Position numbers and translations under genes: made by a program. The notes below the pieces were generated by a model. That model was not told the DNA's origin. It made no database searches and saw only the letters and a program-made list of their open reading frames with translations. DNA of 64,000 nucleotides from Pseudopedobacter saltans DSM 12145 (GTDB taxonomy: Bacteria > Bacteroidota > Bacteroidia > Sphingobacteriales > Sphingobacteriaceae): positions 3,534,001 through 3,598,000 of the forward strand of contig NC_015177.1 of assembly GCF_000190735.1 (NCBI RefSeq), in the 5' to 3' direction. Below, in pieces: positions 3,100 through 43,854 of the stretch. The stretch's first letter is position 1, and every line of letters begins with the position of its first letter.

Positions 3100-3369
3100 T
3101 TATACCGCTGATGTACCTGCTTCTTCCAGATTAATCGCTTCAACAGCGGTAATAGAGGGAACAGCTTTTTTTACGGCCTGTTCTATACCTGCTTTTAAAG
3201 TCATAAAGCTCATTGGGCAAGAGCCACATGCTCCCAATAGTTTAAGCTTCACAACATTATCGTTGGTGATTTCTTCTACTGAAACATTTCCTCCATCGGC
3301 AACTAAATATGGTCTTATGGTATCTAACGCTCTTTCAACCTCATTAAATAAATTATCTCTTGATTCCAT
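3100..3369 (-). CDS. NifU C-terminal-domain Fe-S scaffold protein
   Basis: A small cytosolic protein consisting only of the NifU C-terminal domain, which carries a 4Fe-4S cluster on the CxxC motif for delivery to apoproteins. The motif is seen as GACGSCPMS, with YLVADGGNV near the N-terminus. I chose the second ATG (3367-3369) because AAAGGA lies at a normal ribosome-binding distance from it; an ATG two codons upstream (3375) is possible. It lies 35 bases downstream of mrp on the same strand, and the two very likely form an operon for Fe-S cluster assembly. Confidence 0.9.
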   Translation of the reverse strand: MESRDNLFNEVERALDTIRPYLVADGGNVSVEEITNDNVVKLKLLGACGSCPMSFMTLKAGIEQAVKKAVPSITAVEAINLEEAGTSAV

Positions 3370-3404
3370 ATGCATTCCTTTTTATAAAAATAGTGAATTT
3401 GGGC

Positions 3405-4466
3405 CTATTTTGCAATTCCGTTATTAATAGCTATTTGCTGTGCTACTTTTTGCGCCAGATCAACAAATATTTTGGACATGATACTGTTTTTGTCCAATGC
3501 AATTGGTTGGCCTCCATCACCAGCTTCGCTGACACTCTGTACCAATGGTATCTCTCCTAAAAATGGTACTTTAAATTTTTCTGCCATTTTTTTTCCTCCC
3601 TCTTTACCAAAGATATAATATTTATTATCAGGCAATTCCGTAGGGGTGAAATATGACATATTCTCTACTATACCCAAGATTGGAACATTGATAGCGTTCA
3701 TCATAAACATTCCCAAACCTTTAGTAGTATCAGCCACAGCAACCTGCTGAGGGGTGGTAACAATAATAGCTCCCGAAATTGGATAGCCCTGTGTGATAGT
3801 GATATGAATATCCCCAGTTCCCGGAGGTAGATCTACTACAAGATAATCCAATTCGCCCCAGTCTGCATCGTTAAATAATTGCTTAACTGCGTTTGAAGCC
3901 ATTGGACCTCTCCAAGGTACAGGCTGATCTGGGTCTGTAAAGAATCCTAATGAAAGTATTTTAACTCCATATTTCTCAATAGGTTCTATTAAAGTTTTTC
4001 CGTTAACTTCAGAAGCAAGAGGCTTAGCATCTTGTACACCAAACATAATCGGAACAGACGGTCCGTAAATATCCGCATCAATTAAACCCACTTTTGCTCC
4101 ATTTAAGCTTAAGCCAATCGCCAAGTTTGCGGCTACTGTAGATTTTCCTACTCCGCCCTTACCTGATGAGACCGCTATGATATTCTTTATATTTGGAGAG
4201 AACTGTTTTACCGGAGACGTAACCCGGCTTGTCATATGTATACTGATTTCTGCATCCTGACTTACAAAATGCTTTACTGCATTTCGACAAGCATTCTCTA
4301 GCATTTCCTTTAATGGACATGCAGGTGTAGTAAGCACAACAGAAAAACTAACCTTATTTCCTTCTATTACAAGGTTTTCTATCATATTTAAAGTCACCAA
4401 ATCTTTTTTCAGATCCGGATCCTCAACATTTCTTAAAGCATCTAATACCTTTTCTCTCGTAATCAT
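3405..4466 (-). CDS. Mrp/ApbC-type Fe-S cluster carrier ATPase
   Basis: Mrp/NBP35-family P-loop ATPase of 353 residues that loads Fe-S clusters onto target proteins. Domains: MIP18/DUF59-like at about 1-80, then a deviant Walker A GKGGVGKST at 102-110, with LIDADIYGPS and DLPPGTGD following. The CxxC that follows ENM-(S/A)-(Y/W)-F in ApbC is absent: here the sequence runs ENMSYFTPTELPDNKYYIFG, as I recall for other Bacteroidota. The adjacent NifU-like protein does carry a CxxC. An exact -7 box and a perfect dyad lie immediately upstream of the ATG. Confidence 0.93.
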   Translation of the reverse strand: MITREKVLDALRNVEDPDLKKDLVTLNMIENLVIEGNKVSFSVVLTTPACPLKEMLENACRNAVKHFVSQDAEISIHMTSRVTSPVKQFSPNIKNIIAVSSGKGGVGKSTVAANLAIGLSLNGAKVGLIDADIYGPSVPIMFGVQDAKPLASEVNGKTLIEPIEKYGVKILSLGFFTDPDQPVPWRGPMASNAVKQLFNDADWGELDYLVVDLPPGTGDIHITITQGYPISGAIIVTTPQQVAVADTTKGLGMFMMNAINVPILGIVENMSYFTPTELPDNKYYIFGKEGGKKMAEKFKVPFLGEIPLVQSVSEAGDGGQPIALDKNSIMSKIFVDLAQKVAQQIAINNGIAK

Positions 4467-11588: not shown

Positions 11589-11601
11589 TAACAATCACCT
11601 T

Positions 11602-11642
11602 AAAAAAGAAAGGGGAACCAAAATAGTTCCCCTTTCTTTTTT
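11602..11642. terminator. Bidirectional terminator between nitroreductase and rpsP
   Basis: A perfect 17-base-pair stem, AAAAAAGAAAGGGGAAC (11602-11618) with its complement at 11626-11642, and a seven-base loop. A and T tracts at the two ends allow termination on both strands of these convergent genes. Confidence 0.92.
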
Positions 11643-11655
11643 AAAACAGTAAAGA

Positions 11656-13653: not shown

Positions 13654-13974
13654 ATGATAGTAACAACCACGCCAAATATAGAAGGTAAAAAAGTAGTAAA
13701 ATATTTAGGAATCGTAACTGGAGAAGCTATTATTGGAGCAAATTTCATAAAAGATATTTTCGCAGGAATTAGAGATATTGTTGGCGGTAGAGCAGGTTCT
13801 TATGAAGAAGGGTTAAGGGAAGCAAAAGACATAGCTTTAGCAGAATTGCAGCAAAATGCTCAAAAAATGGGTGCAAACGCAGTTATTGGTGTTGATTTGG
13901 ATTTTGAAACCATTGGCGGCTCGGGAAGTATGCTTATGGTTTCTGCCAGCGGGACGGCCGTAATTGTTGAATAA
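13654..13974 (+). CDS. YbjQ/UPF0145 (DUF74) family protein
   Basis: A 106-residue protein covering the whole YbjQ fold: [20 protein letters not shown] at the start, [11 protein letters not shown], then [21 protein letters not shown] and [11 protein letters not shown]. Known structures in this family are pentamers; the biochemical role is not established and the heavy-metal-binding name is by analogy. It is probably co-transcribed with the preceding exported protein and is followed directly by a bidirectional terminator. Confidence 0.9.
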
Positions 13975-14007
13975 AAAAGGAGCTCGCCAAATTTGAGCTC
14001 CTTTTTT
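13973..14007. terminator. Bidirectional terminator between ybjQ-like gene and pfkA
   Basis: AAAAAAGGAGCTC (13973-13985) pairs perfectly with GAGCTCCTTTTTT (13995-14007), nine-base loop. It overlaps the stop codon of the YbjQ-like gene and ends two bases from the pfkA stop on the other strand. Confidence 0.9.
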
Positions 14008-18441: not shown

Positions 18442-19092
18442 ATGAACGAGACAACAACCTCTAAAGAAAAACTACTTAAGAAAATTAGAAAAGCTCTTCT
18501 GGAAAAACGAGATAATCCTTATCCAAATTTGGAGGATGCTCCTTTGTATCCGGAGACAGATGAAATGCCAGAGGTTATTTTCGCCGAGGAGTTAATCAAA
18601 GTAAGTGGAAATTTTGTTTTCTGTGAGGATGAAATCCATCTGATAGAAAATATCATTTTACTGGCAGAAGAAAAGAAATGGAGGAAAATTTATTGTTGGG
18701 AAAAGCCATTACAAGATCTGTTGAATAAATATGAATATCCTTTTTATGAAACAGATAAAGATTTCGAACTTGCGGAAGTTGGTTTAACACTATGCGAATC
18801 GCTGATTGCCAGAAATGGCTCGGTATTGATTAGCAATGCCAATTCAGCGGGCCGCCGTTTAAGTATTTATCCTCATGTACATATTGTAATTGCATATACT
18901 TCGCAACTGGTAATGGATTTGAAAGATGCTTTCCAGTTACTGAAAGATAAATACGGCAACAATCTCCCTACAATGATCAGCAATATTACCGGGCCAAGCC
19001 GTACGGCTGATATAGAGAAAACGCTGGTTTTAGGAGCGCATGGACCTAAAGAATTTTATGTTTTTTTGCTCGAGGATAAAAACCAATTCTAA
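18442..19092 (+). CDS. LUD-domain protein (LutC/YkgG family)
   Basis: A 216-residue protein whose C-terminal two thirds is the LUD fold: EVGLTLCESLIARNGSVLIS, SAGRRLSIYPHVHIVIAYTSQL, then ITGPSRTADIEKTLVLGAHGPKE at the end. In Bacillus, LutC works with LutA and LutB in lactate oxidation; no such Fe-S partner is near, so the function here is open. It has its own promoter and sits 44 bases before a radical SAM gene, whose own promoter dyad fills most of that gap. Confidence 0.88.
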   Translation: MNETTTSKEKLLKKIRKALLEKRDNPYPNLEDAPLYPETDEMPEVIFAEELIKVSGNFVFCEDEIHLIENIILLAEEKKWRKIYCWEKPLQDLLNKYEYPFYETDKDFELAEVGLTLCESLIARNGSVLISNANSAGRRLSIYPHVHIVIAYTSQLVMDLKDAFQLLKDKYGNNLPTMISNITGPSRTADIEKTLVLGAHGPKEFYVFLLEDKNQF

Positions 19093-19099
19093 TATTACC

Positions 19100-19136
19100 A
19101 GATCAAAAATACTAATATTTTTAGTATTTTTGATCT
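19100..19136 (+). promoter_or_regulatory. 37-base perfect dyad with embedded -7 box, adjoining the radical SAM start
   Basis: Sixteen-base arms (19100-19115 and 19121-19136) are perfect reverse complements around TATTT. The right arm contains TATTTTTG (19125-19132), an exact TAnnTTTG, only four bases before the ATG at 19137. It can act as an operator, as a terminator for the LUD gene, or both. It is AT-rich, which favours a protein-binding site or a DNA cruciform over a strong RNA terminator. Confidence 0.6.
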
Positions 19137-20204
19137 ATGCTAAATAACAATTCTGAATTTTTAAGAGGCCGGGGAGCTCAAGGAAGTATTAATAATAAGT
19201 TTAATAAACTAAAATACAGCCTTGATCATGTAGAGGGTTTGGATGAAGAATTTATTCAGGAAATAAAAACAGAATTCATTTTAGAGCATCCAAAATCTAT
19301 TATTTCTTACAATAAAAGTGAAGATCTTTCTTTTGGAAATTCTATAAATCCTTACCACGGTTGCGAACATGGTTGTATATACTGTTATGCAAGAAATTCA
19401 CATGAATATTGGGGTTTTGATGCCGGGTTGGATTTTGAAAGCAAAATAATCGTAAAACCAAATGCGGCGGATTTACTGAGGAAAGAATTTGACAAAAAAA
19501 CTTATAAACCAGAACCCATCTTATTGTCAGGAAATACAGATTGCTATCAACCGGCGGAAAGAAAATTTAAAATAACAAGATCACTTTTAGAGGTATTTCT
19601 TGAGTATAGACATCCTGTTCATATCATTACTAAAAATAACCTGATTTTAAGAGATATCGACTTACTAGAGGAACTTAATAAACTCCATCTGGTATCTACA
19701 AGTGTTACTATAACTTCTCTGCAAGAGGATCTGAGAAATAAATTAGAGCCAAGAACAGTCACTGGAAAGGGGAGACTAAAAGTAATTCGGGAATTAAGTA
19801 ATATCGGGATTCCCGTAAATGTGATGGTTGCTCCAATAATTCCAGGACTAAATAGCGAGGAAATACCACAAATTATTAACGAAGCCTCTATTAACGGCGC
19901 TATAAGTGCTGGATTTACAATAGTGAGATTAAATGGCGCTATCGCAGAAATATTCACAGACTGGATTTATAAGACTTTCCCGGACCGGGCCGAAAAGGTA
20001 ATACATCGTATACAAGCGTGTCATAATGGTAAATTAAATGATACGAGATGGGGATCCCGAATAAGCGGAGACGGAATAGAAGCAGAAGCTATTCATCAAT
20101 TATTTCGACTGTCTTTAAGAAAGTATGGCTTACCCAAAGCAAAAAAAAGTTTAGATTATACTTTATTCAGGAATAAACATAACAGCCAATTATCTCTATT
20201 CTAA
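19137..20204 (+). CDS. PA0069-family radical SAM protein
   Basis: A 355-residue radical SAM protein with the cluster motif C76-x3-C80-x2-C83 in GCEHGCIYCYARNS. The N-terminal GRGAQGSINNKF and LSGNTDCYQPAERKFKITR match the PA0069/Rv2578c group related to SplB (spore photoproduct lyase). Other marks are PVNVMVAPIIPGLN and RLNGAIAEIFTDW. The reaction of this group is not established; relation to SplB makes nucleic-acid repair or modification possible but unproven. The mRNA is predicted to be leaderless because the -7 box lies within a perfect dyad that touches the ATG. Confidence 0.9.
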   Translation: MLNNNSEFLRGRGAQGSINNKFNKLKYSLDHVEGLDEEFIQEIKTEFILEHPKSIISYNKSEDLSFGNSINPYHGCEHGCIYCYARNSHEYWGFDAGLDFESKIIVKPNAADLLRKEFDKKTYKPEPILLSGNTDCYQPAERKFKITRSLLEVFLEYRHPVHIITKNNLILRDIDLLEELNKLHLVSTSVTITSLQEDLRNKLEPRTVTGKGRLKVIRELSNIGIPVNVMVAPIIPGLNSEEIPQIINEASINGAISAGFTIVRLNGAIAEIFTDWIYKTFPDRAEKVIHRIQACHNGKLNDTRWGSRISGDGIEAEAIHQLFRLSLRKYGLPKAKKSLDYTLFRNKHNSQLSLF

Positions 20205-34721: not shown

Positions 34722-35714
34722 CTACAATCCCAACTTCGCTGAAATATCCAACATTCTTTCAATTGGTAATCTTGCTTTCTCTATTATTTCACGTGGAACA
34801 TCAACTTCTGGAAGTTCATTTTTCAAACATAAGTATAACTTTTCCAGCGTATTACGTTTCATATGAGGGCAATCGTTACAAGCGCATGAATTATTTGGCG
34901 GAGCCGGAATAAAAGTCTTTCCTGGATTTTCTTTCTCCATTTGATGAATAATCCCCGTTTCGGTTGCAACAATAAATTCAGTAGCAGAGTCCTTAATTGT
35001 ATAATTCAACAATCCGGTAGTAGAACCGATGTAATCTGCCATTTTTAAAATAGCGTCTTCACATTCAGGGTGAGCAATGAATTTTGCATTTGGATGGCGC
35101 TCTTTCAGTTTGGTAATCTTTTCCTGCGAAAAAATTTCATGTACCATGCAAGCTCCATTCCAAAGAACCATATCCCGGCCAGTTTTCTTCATCACGTAAG
35201 CACCTAAATTTCTATCAGGACCGAAAATAATCTTCTGATCTTTAGGTAAGCTTTCTACAATTTGGACCGCATTACTGGAAGTACAAACAATATCGCTTAA
35301 AGCTTTTAATTCTGCAGTGCAGTTTACATAGGTAATAACAAGATGGTCTGGATATTTCTCCTTAAATTTCCTGAATAAATGCGGAGGACAGCTGTCAGAT
35401 AAGGAACAGCCAGCTTTCACATCAGGTAAAAGTACTTTTTTATCGGGCGAAAGAATCTTAGCCGTTTCTGCCATAAAATGCACACCGGCAAAAACGATTA
35501 TATTAGCATCTGTTTTAGCAGCTTGTTGAGAAAGCCCTAAACTATCACCTATATAATCTGCTATATCCTGAATATCAGGGTCTTGATAATAATGAGCGAG
35601 AATAACAGCATTCTTCTCTTTTTTTAACTTTTCAATCTCCTCAAACAGATCTAAAGTTGGGTCTATATATTCGTCAACAAACCCTTTTAAATTAATTTCT
35701 TCAAGTGCATTCAT
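34722..35714 (-). CDS. nadA: Quinolinate synthase
   Basis: A 330-residue 4Fe-4S enzyme that condenses iminoaspartate with dihydroxyacetone phosphate to quinolinate, the NAD precursor. Likely cluster ligands are C103 ([10 protein letters not shown]), C189 (NGACMVHE) and a Cys of the [10 protein letters not shown] segment (277-284). HYYQ (41-44) and [10 protein letters not shown] are typical substrate-binding parts. It is divergent from nadB across a 449-base AT-rich gap. A parS-like 16-mer with one mismatch lies inside the gene near its 3' end. Confidence 0.96.
34785..34800. other. parS-like site inside nadA
   Basis: On the minus strand the 16-mer is TGTTCCACGTGAAATA, one base different from the Bacillus-type parS consensus TGTTNCACGTGAAACA. 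It falls in codons for VPREI near the C-terminus of NadA, so it must satisfy both coding and any ParB binding. Confidence 0.6.
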
Positions 35715-41907: not shown

Positions 41908-41923
41908 TGTTCCACGTGGAACA
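41908..41923. other. parS-type centromere site 1
   Basis: TGTTCCACGTGGAACA, a perfect 16-base palindrome (18 with flanking A and T) matching the bacterial parS consensus TGTTYCACGTGRAACA. It lies 13 bases upstream of the mnmG start codon, in the gap before the ABC-F gene. Confidence 0.85.
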
Positions 41924-41957
41924 TGTGCTTTATTGATTTGTTTATATAAAAGATGAA

Positions 41958-41995
41958 ATTAATTTAGATGTTTCACGTGGAACATCTAAATTAAT
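41958..41995. other. parS-type centromere site 2 inside a longer palindrome
   Basis: Core TGTTTCACGTGGAACA (41969-41984) matches TGTTYCACGTGRAACA. The symmetry extends to a 38-base palindrome (41958-41995) with only one mismatched pair. The core ends two bases before the ABC-F stop codon (41986-41988), so the dyad may also end transcription of that gene. Centre-to-centre distance to site 1 is 61 bases. Confidence 0.85.
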
Positions 41996-43854
41996 TCTGA
42001 TAGTTCAAGCCATCTATTACTTTTTTCTTCTAGTTTTTTCTTTGTGTCTTCTAAAACTTTTATGATTTCGTTTATTTTTTCTAAATCTGCTTGATTGTTT
42101 AATTCCTGCTCTAATCTTTTTATTTTTTCTTCTATTGCAGGAATCTCGTTATTAAGGTTGTCTAATTCTATTTTCTCTTTATAAGATATTTTATTCTTTT
42201 TATCAGTAATAGGAGTAGGAGCTGCGATTTGTTTTTCTTTTCTCTTTTGCTCTTCCTTTTCTAAAATTTTGATTTCTTCTTGTTCTGCTCTATAAAAACT
42301 ATAATTACCATTGAATATTTTGATACTGCCATTGCCTTCTAAAATAAATAATTGATCGGTTAATTTATCAACCAAGTATCTATCGTGGGATACTAATACT
42401 AATACACCTGGGAATTTTTCTAGAAACTCTTCTAAAACATTAAGTGTATCTATATCTAAATCGTTAGTAGGCTCATCCAGTATAAGAAAGTTTGGATTCT
42501 TAATTAATACTTTCATTAAATGAAGCCTTTTCTTTTCTCCACCGCTCAGTAAGCTTACAAAACCATGTTGCTTTTTTGGAGGAAATAGAAATAATGTTAA
42601 TAGTTGAGAAGCACTTATCGTGCTTCCATCAGCTAAGGTTATGTATTCTGCAATGTTTTTTACAACGTCAATAACCCGTTCTGATTCGTTGAAGCTCAAT
42701 CCAGACTGATGGTAATACCCGAATACAGTGGTTTCCCCTTTTTCTACTTTTCCGCTATCAGGATTTAATTCTCCCGTGATTATGTTTAAAAAAGTAGATT
42801 TTCCTGTTCCATTTTTTCCGGTTAAACCAATTTTATCTCCTTTTTTAAAGGTGTAGGAGAAATCTTTTATTATCTCCTGCTCGTTAAAGGTTTTAGAAAT
42901 ATGCTCTACTTCAAGTATTTTATTGCCTTGTCTGCTAACTTTAACATCTAATGCTATGGTTTCCTTTTTGTTTTTACCTTTTGTTTTATCTTCTAACTCA
43001 TAGAATGCATCTTTTCTTGCTTTTGATTTAGTTGCCCTTGCTTGAGGCATTCTACGCATCCATTCTAATTCTTTTTTTAGTAGGTTTTTGTTTTTTGCCA
43101 ACGTAGCTTCATCTATAGCATCTTTTTCTGCTTTCTTTTCCAGGTAATAAGCGTATTTGCCTTTATAGGTAAATACGTTTCCGTTATCTAATTCTATTAT
43201 TTCATTACATATGTTGTCGAGAAAGTATCTATCATGAGTAACCATTAATATGGTTTTTCCACCTGTCGTCAAAAATTTTTCAAGCCACTCTATAGTATCT
43301 ATATCTAAATGGTTAGTTGGCTCATCCAATACATATACATCAGGTTCGTCTATAAGTAATTTGGCTAAGCTTAATCTCTTCTTTTGTCCCCCCGATAGGG
43401 TAGATATATTTTGATGTAAGTTTGAAATACCTAGTCTTCCTAAAATAGTTTTTATATTATGTTCGTATTCCCAGGCATCTAAACTGCTGATTTCTTCTGT
43501 GAGCTTATTAACTAAATCTATATCTGGATTGTCTTGCTCAAGAAGCTCTTCATATTCTCTAATAACCTGTTGCTGTCTGTTGTTTAGGCTAAAAATGAAA
43601 TCACTTATAGTTGCTGCTCCATCAAATTGAGGATCCTGTTCCAGATAACCGAATTTGATATCTTTTGCTTTTACAACTTTTCCTTCGGTTGGTTTGAAGC
43701 GTTCGGCTAATAATTTTAAAAGTGTAGATTTTCCTGCACCATTTACGCCAACCAAAGCTACTCTTTGTCCCTGTTGTATTCCAAAAGTAAGATTTTTGAA
43801 CAACCACTGATCATTGTATGCATGACCCAATTGTTCTGCTGATATAATACTCAC
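41986..43854 (-). CDS. ABC-F ATPase (Uup-like)
   Basis: A 622-residue protein with two ABC modules and no membrane part. Module 1: GVNGAGKST (near residue 36), LSGGQKKRLSLAKLL, DVYVLDEPTNHLDI. Linker PtIM region about 230-310. Module 2: GKNGTGKST, LSGGEKKRLHLMKVL, FLILDEPTNDLDI. The C-terminal charged coiled coil (about 540-620) is as in Uup. ABC-F proteins act on ribosomes; Uup has also been tied to transposon excision. It overlaps the upstream oxidoreductase gene by four bases. Confidence 0.94.
   Translation of the reverse strand: MSIISAEQLGHAYNDQWLFKNLTFGIQQGQRVALVGVNGAGKSTLLKLLAERFKPTEGKVVKAKDIKFGYLEQDPQFDGAATISDFIFSLNNRQQQVIREYEELLEQDNPDIDLVNKLTEEISSLDAWEYEHNIKTILGRLGISNLHQNISTLSGGQKKRLSLAKLLIDEPDVYVLDEPTNHLDIDTIEWLEKFLTTGGKTILMVTHDRYFLDNICNEIIELDNGNVFTYKGKYAYYLEKKAEKDAIDEATLAKNKNLLKKELEWMRRMPQARATKSKARKDAFYELEDKTKGKNKKETIALDVKVSRQGNKILEVEHISKTFNEQEIIKDFSYTFKKGDKIGLTGKNGTGKSTFLNIITGELNPDSGKVEKGETTVFGYYHQSGLSFNESERVIDVVKNIAEYITLADGSTISASQLLTLFLFPPKKQHGFVSLLSGGEKKRLHLMKVLIKNPNFLILDEPTNDLDIDTLNVLEEFLEKFPGVLVLVSHDRYLVDKLTDQLFILEGNGSIKIFNGNYSFYRAEQEEIKILEKEEQKRKEKQIAAPTPITDKKNKISYKEKIELDNLNNEIPAIEEKIKRLEQELNNQADLEKINEIIKVLEDTKKKLEEKSNRWLELSELI

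Follow-up and report, generated by a model that had tools for sequence, protein, structure and literature searches.

We found that a perfect inverted repeat fused to the start of a PA0069-type radical SAM gene in Pseudopedobacter saltans DSM 12145 is, as judged from sequence comparison, very probably a binding site for the repressor that governs DNA-damage genes in this part of the Bacteroidetes. The repeat lies in a stretch of 64,000 nucleotides (hereafter the window, whose coordinates we use throughout). Function most likely resides in its central 13 bp, rather than in the whole dyad: a palindromic SOS box core, CTAA-TATTT-TTAG (19112-19124, + strand), predicted to be the operator of a non-canonical LexA, sits within an extended core TACTAA-N5-TTAGTA (19110-19126, +) and is abutted, in the right dyad arm, by a -7 promoter element TATTTTTG (19125-19132, +; TAnnTTTG). 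In the mechanism that we propose, a non-canonical LexA dimer on the core would keep RNA polymerase off the -7 element in undamaged cells. Upon DNA damage, RecA filaments would cause the repressor to cut itself at an Ala-Gly bond, and the ensuing derepression would allow transcription from at or next to the ATG. The resulting leaderless mRNA would encode a radical SAM enzyme of the PA0069 type with a role in repair or damage tolerance. We consider this explanation as a whole, comprising LexA-type repression, damage induction, a leaderless PA0069 mRNA, and a repair or tolerance enzyme, to be highly likely. Sequence analysis shows the core and its conservation, a regulator gene with catalytic residues and its own box, the boxes at repair genes, and the fixed spacing; binding, induction, and self-cleavage would follow from published work on related species, and the position of an SOS box at both promoter and start codon of the PA0069 gene suggests that the enzyme helps to handle damaged DNA. 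This would link a poorly characterised family of radical SAM enzymes to the DNA-damage response.

The full perfect dyad spans 19100-19136 (no strand), with arms of 16 bases each (19100-19115 and 19121-19136) that were 100% complementary in a repeat analysis of the window and flank a 5-nt spacer (AGATCAAAAATACTAA-TATTT-TTAGTATTTTTGATCT). A sequence-only reading of this DNA had described exactly such a dyad, with 16-base arms around five bases and running up to the ATG, and indeed the dyad ends at 19136 and the ATG starts at 19137. The window contains seven perfect inverted repeats whose arms reach 10 bases or more around loops of 3-9, and in three of them the arms reach at least 16; as 15 dinucleotide-shuffled versions of the window yielded arms of 12 at most, the dyad exceeds what chance produces. 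Long dyads are not unique to this site, the other two with arms of at least 16 being a terminator-like hairpin and a parS-like site. Allowing up to 3 mismatches, the full 37-mer has a single copy in the window (none in 100 shuffled versions); it was also present as a single copy in its own genome (one contig, 4.6 Mb), and had no copy in the 59 others of the 60 genomes searched. An interspersed repeat was ruled out by this uniqueness of the full dyad.

The core is strongly conserved upstream of PA0069 genes. Matches to PA0069 were obtained in 318 of 351 genomes of the Sphingobacteriaceae (E ≤0.001), and we collected 110 upstream regions, 10 from the genus and 100 from the family, the latter consisting of 20 loci outside the genus and 80 hand-picked, and thus non-random, loci from the matches listed for the 318 matched genomes, a listing that stops short of the weakest matches. 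One locus whose gene was cut by the contig start and had no upstream sequence (L019) was excluded, and three loci (L061-L063) were counted once, being on the same contigs as L010-L012. An exact core was found in 107 of the 110 regions, its first base lying 22-49 nt ahead of the first matched codon, while two regions had it with one mismatch and one (L182) lacked it. Upon scoring all 256 half-sites within 60 nt, we obtained CTAA in 107 regions, compared to 14 for the next best half-site and to 0 or 1 for each of the eleven other half-sites of CTAA composition. All 9 other same-genus orthologs that have upstream sequence carry the core just before the start codon. This conservation supports the operator over promoter and start codon that had been proposed from the sequence, with the central 13 bp likely taking the place of the whole dyad as the element. 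Absence of the dyad from close relatives, which had been named as evidence against such a function, was seen for the full 37-mer but not for the core. Among additional named loci, the core was present in 13/13 with an identity of at least 60% (L064-L076; at least five of these contigs are already among the 110) and in 1/10 more distant PA0069 homologs (L077-L085 and L087, from Flavobacteriia, Cyclobacteriaceae, and others), with L086 excluded as its gene was cut by the contig start. A GGA-N5-TCC variant occurred in none of these 23 named loci, including the ten distant homologs. The region without a core, L182, belongs to the weaker of two PA0069 copies in one genome (G305); this copy may be a paralog outside the SOS regulon, which it either left or never joined.

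Around the core, the spacer was almost wholly A/T in the 107 orthologs, and the first flank pair switched jointly between A-T and G-C. Flank pairs 1, 3, and 4 were complementary in 85, 87, and 77% of the orthologs, as compared to 51, 54, and 45% after left and right flanks were exchanged between loci, and none of 500 such shuffles reached the observed values, a covariation that is suggestive only, because related sequences can beat such shuffles without selection. Farther out, conservation of the arms is not general: 12/107 orthologs show six or more of the 8 outer pairs, where 1000 shuffles gave 2.6 such orthologs on average and 9 at most. The full 16-base arms of the window are unusual. Template switching, a mutational process, between near-perfect arms might have extended the dyad this far in a few genomes, that of P. 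saltans included, or extra protein contacts might account for it.

The excess of outer pairing over the shuffle mean could also reflect an RNA hairpin that hides the PA0069 start in read-through transcripts and thus serves as an insulator, alone or besides an operator. Such a hairpin would be stable (RNA fold of -21.5 kcal/mol, z -3.2, 0/200 shuffles as good), and the upstream gene in the window is co-directional and very close. However, outer pairing was no better at the 63 loci with a close co-directional gene than at the 44 others (Mann-Whitney p 0.29), with at least 6 of 8 outer pairs in 8/63 versus 4/44 loci (Fisher p 0.76), and the conserved part is the DNA core, which is common to other genes at other distances. 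Furthermore, if the PA0069 mRNA is leaderless, the hairpin would lie outside that mRNA. We therefore regard a hairpin function as unlikely.

The close upstream gene encodes a LUD-domain protein (18442-19092, +; PF02589, 91.3 bits). It is co-directional with PA0069, ends 7 nt before the dyad, and is not part of the control element. A stable stem 7 nt past a stop codon might suggest an intrinsic terminator of the LUD gene, but the stem is followed by ATGCTAAAT instead of a T-run, the site was absent from a terminator scan, and the core is kept at loci with a divergent or another upstream gene. LUD precedes PA0069 in 6 of ten genus loci including the window, a histidine-kinase-like gene does so in L016, and a divergent gene lies upstream in L014, L015, and L017, all with the core kept (gene names by eye). 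The possibility, raised in the sequence-only reading, that the dyad occurs only as a terminator of the LUD gene fails because the core stands beside divergent or non-LUD upstream genes (L014-L017), and we consider a terminator to be extremely improbable.

The SOS operator reading gains from comparison with published work. Sanchez-Osuna et al. (2021; PMC8565304) described CTAA-N5-TTAG as the SOS box of a CI-like S24 "non-canonical LexA" of Bacteroidetes and, in P. actiniarum, examined the box through EMSA with mutated sites; several genes were induced by mitomycin C, and self-cleavage of the regulator was deduced from its residues. Their text names the Sphingobacteriaceae among the groups with this system and predicts a regulon of recA, dinB, imuA-imuB-dnaE2, a UDG system, and splB (COG1533). 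As far as the text of PMC8565304 goes, core and 5-bp spacer are identical to those found here, as are the regulator architecture, its Ala-Gly, Ser, and Lys residues, and its autoregulation, and the two regulons have dinB, imuA-imuB, the UDG system, a GIY-YIG exonuclease, and an SplB-type (COG1533) radical SAM gene in common. A guess made from the window alone, that the dyad has to do with DNA damage, is thus supported by comparison, as the core matches a published EMSA-tested SOS motif and recurs at repair genes. Two differences emerged from the same text: at PA0069 the box and a -7 element adjoin each other at a constant distance from the start codon, and the flanks covary with arms reaching 16 bp in the window, whereas dyad-adjacent positions were dispensable for binding in P. 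actiniarum. The terms "leaderless", "transcription start", and "start codon" are absent from the main text of PMC8565304. Hence, the site belongs to an established class of elements, and its target was probably already predicted under another name; to this our sequence comparison adds the fused, probably leaderless architecture and a firm placing of the PA0069 gene in the SOS regulon, with the operator described more closely than in the text of PMC8565304.

Counts of sites carry no signal, and only position does, because the pattern read backwards is commoner still: exact TACTAA-N5-TTAGTA occurred 43 times in 18 genus genomes versus 48 times for the backwards pattern, and at up to 2 mismatches 420 versus 771 times in the P. 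saltans genome, while the window held 4 cores versus 2.3 expected. By position, exact cores in the P. saltans genome precede dinB, imuA-imuB (where imuA is identified from its resemblance to L044), and a UDG-linked radical SAM gene (rSAM_link_UDG, TIGR03916), and recA has one-mismatch sites upstream without an exact core. We inspected 21 of the 43 genus sites with their surroundings, in 20 stretches, and found sites before an XRE/S24 repressor gene, dinB, imuA-imuB (with imuA below its family model's cut-off), an exonuclease-GIY-YIG fusion gene, and the TIGR03916 gene. The search for the same dyad near repair genes that had been suggested as a check accordingly turned up the core, at the S24 repressor, dinB, imuA-imuB, and the UDG-linked gene, but not the full 37-mer. 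For TIGR03916 ("putative DNA modification/repair radical SAM"), 12/13 loci had the core no more than 60 nt from the first matched codon. Of the TIGR03916 loci L225-L231, 7/7 showed two CTAA-N5-TTAG cores 22-24 nt apart, which by their sequence are predicted tandem SOS boxes spaced by about two helical turns. No evident repair gene accompanied the sites at L039, L045, and L055. At L039, the third exact site of the P. saltans genome (C1, near 1090148), the core (site at 3149-3165) is followed by TAATTTTG, 4 nt, and the ATG of an ORF (3176-3427) encoding 83 aa, whose product had no Pfam match at E ≤1 and two weak PHROG matches (E 0.02-0.03) and is a candidate SOS-induced small protein.

A CI-like non-canonical LexA is the likely regulator of the PA0069 site, judging from its gene and its own promoter. 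The P. saltans gene (C1:1428565-1429335) encodes 257 aa with an HTH_3 domain (8-62) and a Peptidase_S24 domain (124-215) and has its own SOS box upstream, and A106-G107, S143, and K182 were identical in 29/29 regulator homologs. The nearest core lay 27-63 nt before the repressor start codon in 23/23 family loci, and a core was also present at L057. Regulator homologs from other families had the core in 1/6 cases (L217), with L215, L216, and L218-L220 lacking an exact core within 200 nt. Nine matches to solved structures covered the helix-turn-helix part only. The genome has one further S24 match (L059), which we rejected as the regulator, given its different N-terminus and a 3.3-kb locus with no exact core. 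The canonical LexA of E. coli and B. subtilis is likewise an S24 repressor with autorepression and control of repair genes, with a different operator sequence, and its N-terminus is a winged helix as opposed to the HTH_3/CI-like domain here. Divergent to the SOS regulator gene, and with a common promoter region, we recurrently observed a gene for a 113/114-aa product (L047 2800-3141, L040 2611-2955, and others), two examples of which gave no Pfam match at E ≤1.

One could instead imagine that the dyad is bound by some other, local repressor and resembles an SOS box by coincidence, a reading that could draw on the whole 37-mer being unique in the genome and on outer arms that exceed what the published regulator needs according to the text of PMC8565304. 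However, the core is found in the same genomes at the promoter of the S24 repressor and at several repair genes, and no regulator gene was seen by eye among the ORFs beside PA0069. We judge such a local repressor to be very unlikely.

Under control by the non-canonical LexA, transcription of PA0069 would probably yield a leaderless mRNA. The Bacteroidetes -7 consensus is TAnnTTTG, and many probable promoters of F. johnsoniae have 4-5 nt between the -7 element and the transcription start, as reported in the text of PMC6847099. The -7 box that the sequence-only reading had placed inside the right arm fits this consensus. In the 107 orthologs, [TC]AnnTTTG stood to the right of the core in 83 (exact TAnnTTTG in 26), with a mirror-image element to the left in 4, and the distance from the last base of the -7 element to the first in-frame ATG or GTG was 3-5 nt in 103 (4 nt in the window); in 18/107, the box itself contains a TTG that would be a possible start if this codon is allowed. 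No -33 element (TTTG) was seen by eye at the usual distance at the site. Given the 3-5 nt spacing and the 4-5 nt of F. johnsoniae, we would expect PA0069 transcripts to begin at the start codon or right beside it. A leaderless start is not the rule in the phylum: in F. johnsoniae, leaders were longer than 10 nt in 87% of the transcripts with a probable promoter (PMC6847099, in the text covered), and leaderless mRNAs are described as a minority in flavobacteria, at 5.5% in F. psychrophilum. The fixed spacing suggests that PA0069 belongs to this leaderless minority across the whole family.

We asked how such spacing is distributed in 329 ORFs from the window and the other loci, a weak general test of leaderless starts in a set that is enriched in SOS loci. 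TAnnTTTG was found at 4 and at 5 nt before the ATG in 6 ORFs each, as well as at 16 and 49 nt in 6 each, and 7 of the 13 ORFs in this SOS-enriched set with TAnnTTTG 3-5 nt before the ATG follow an SOS core. We tentatively suggest, with a confidence that falls just short of even, that box, -7 element, 3-5 nt, and start codon form a fixed cassette for leaderless expression in part of the SOS regulon of the Sphingobacteriaceae, with PA0069 as a core member and dedicated DNA-damage enzyme. If true, repressor, polymerase, and ribosome would use one common stretch of ~40 bp. The literature matches listed included no paper on leaderless SOS genes in Bacteroidetes. Two further gene starts, at 1679 in the window and at 2998 in L085 (a Winogradskyella homolog of PA0069), lack an SOS core and show TAATTTTG 4 nt ahead of the ATG; they mark candidate leaderless genes.

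The target itself is well assigned. The gene (19137-20204, +) encodes 355 aa that exceed the cut-off of the PA0069 family model (NF033668; 466.3 bits versus 360, residues 10-355), which confirms the PA0069-type assignment made from the letters alone, and the protein carries the radical SAM signature CxxxCxxC as CEHGCIYC, along with a PF04055 match. PA0069 proteins presumably belong to COG1533. The spore photoproduct lyase SplB is a radical SAM enzyme as well, from which the protein differs in exceeding the cut-off of its own PA0069 family; none of its 5 NCBIfam matches, in a library that may lack such a model, was to a spore photoproduct lyase model. A PDB search with the PA0069 protein returned, at E ≤1, one sequence only, an unrelated 12-oxophytodienoate reductase (E 0.091). 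Our literature search found no paper naming PA0069 together with radical SAM, and none joining the Pedobacter SOS response, mitomycin, and radical SAM.

Apart from the PA0069 site, the window contains other symmetric elements. Two perfect, terminator-like hairpins with T-rich ends lie at 11600-11644 (19-base arms) and 13973-14007 (13-base arms). Furthermore, three parS-like sites (34785-34800, 41908-41923, and 41969-41984) are 1-2 mismatches away from the parS consensus TGTTTCACGTGAAACA, with 0.01 expected, and possibly form a ParB-binding cluster, as far as their sequence indicates. Two of the three lie between mnmG/gidA-like and ABC-F-like genes (names by eye), and one is located inside a 16-bp perfect dyad at 41957-41996.
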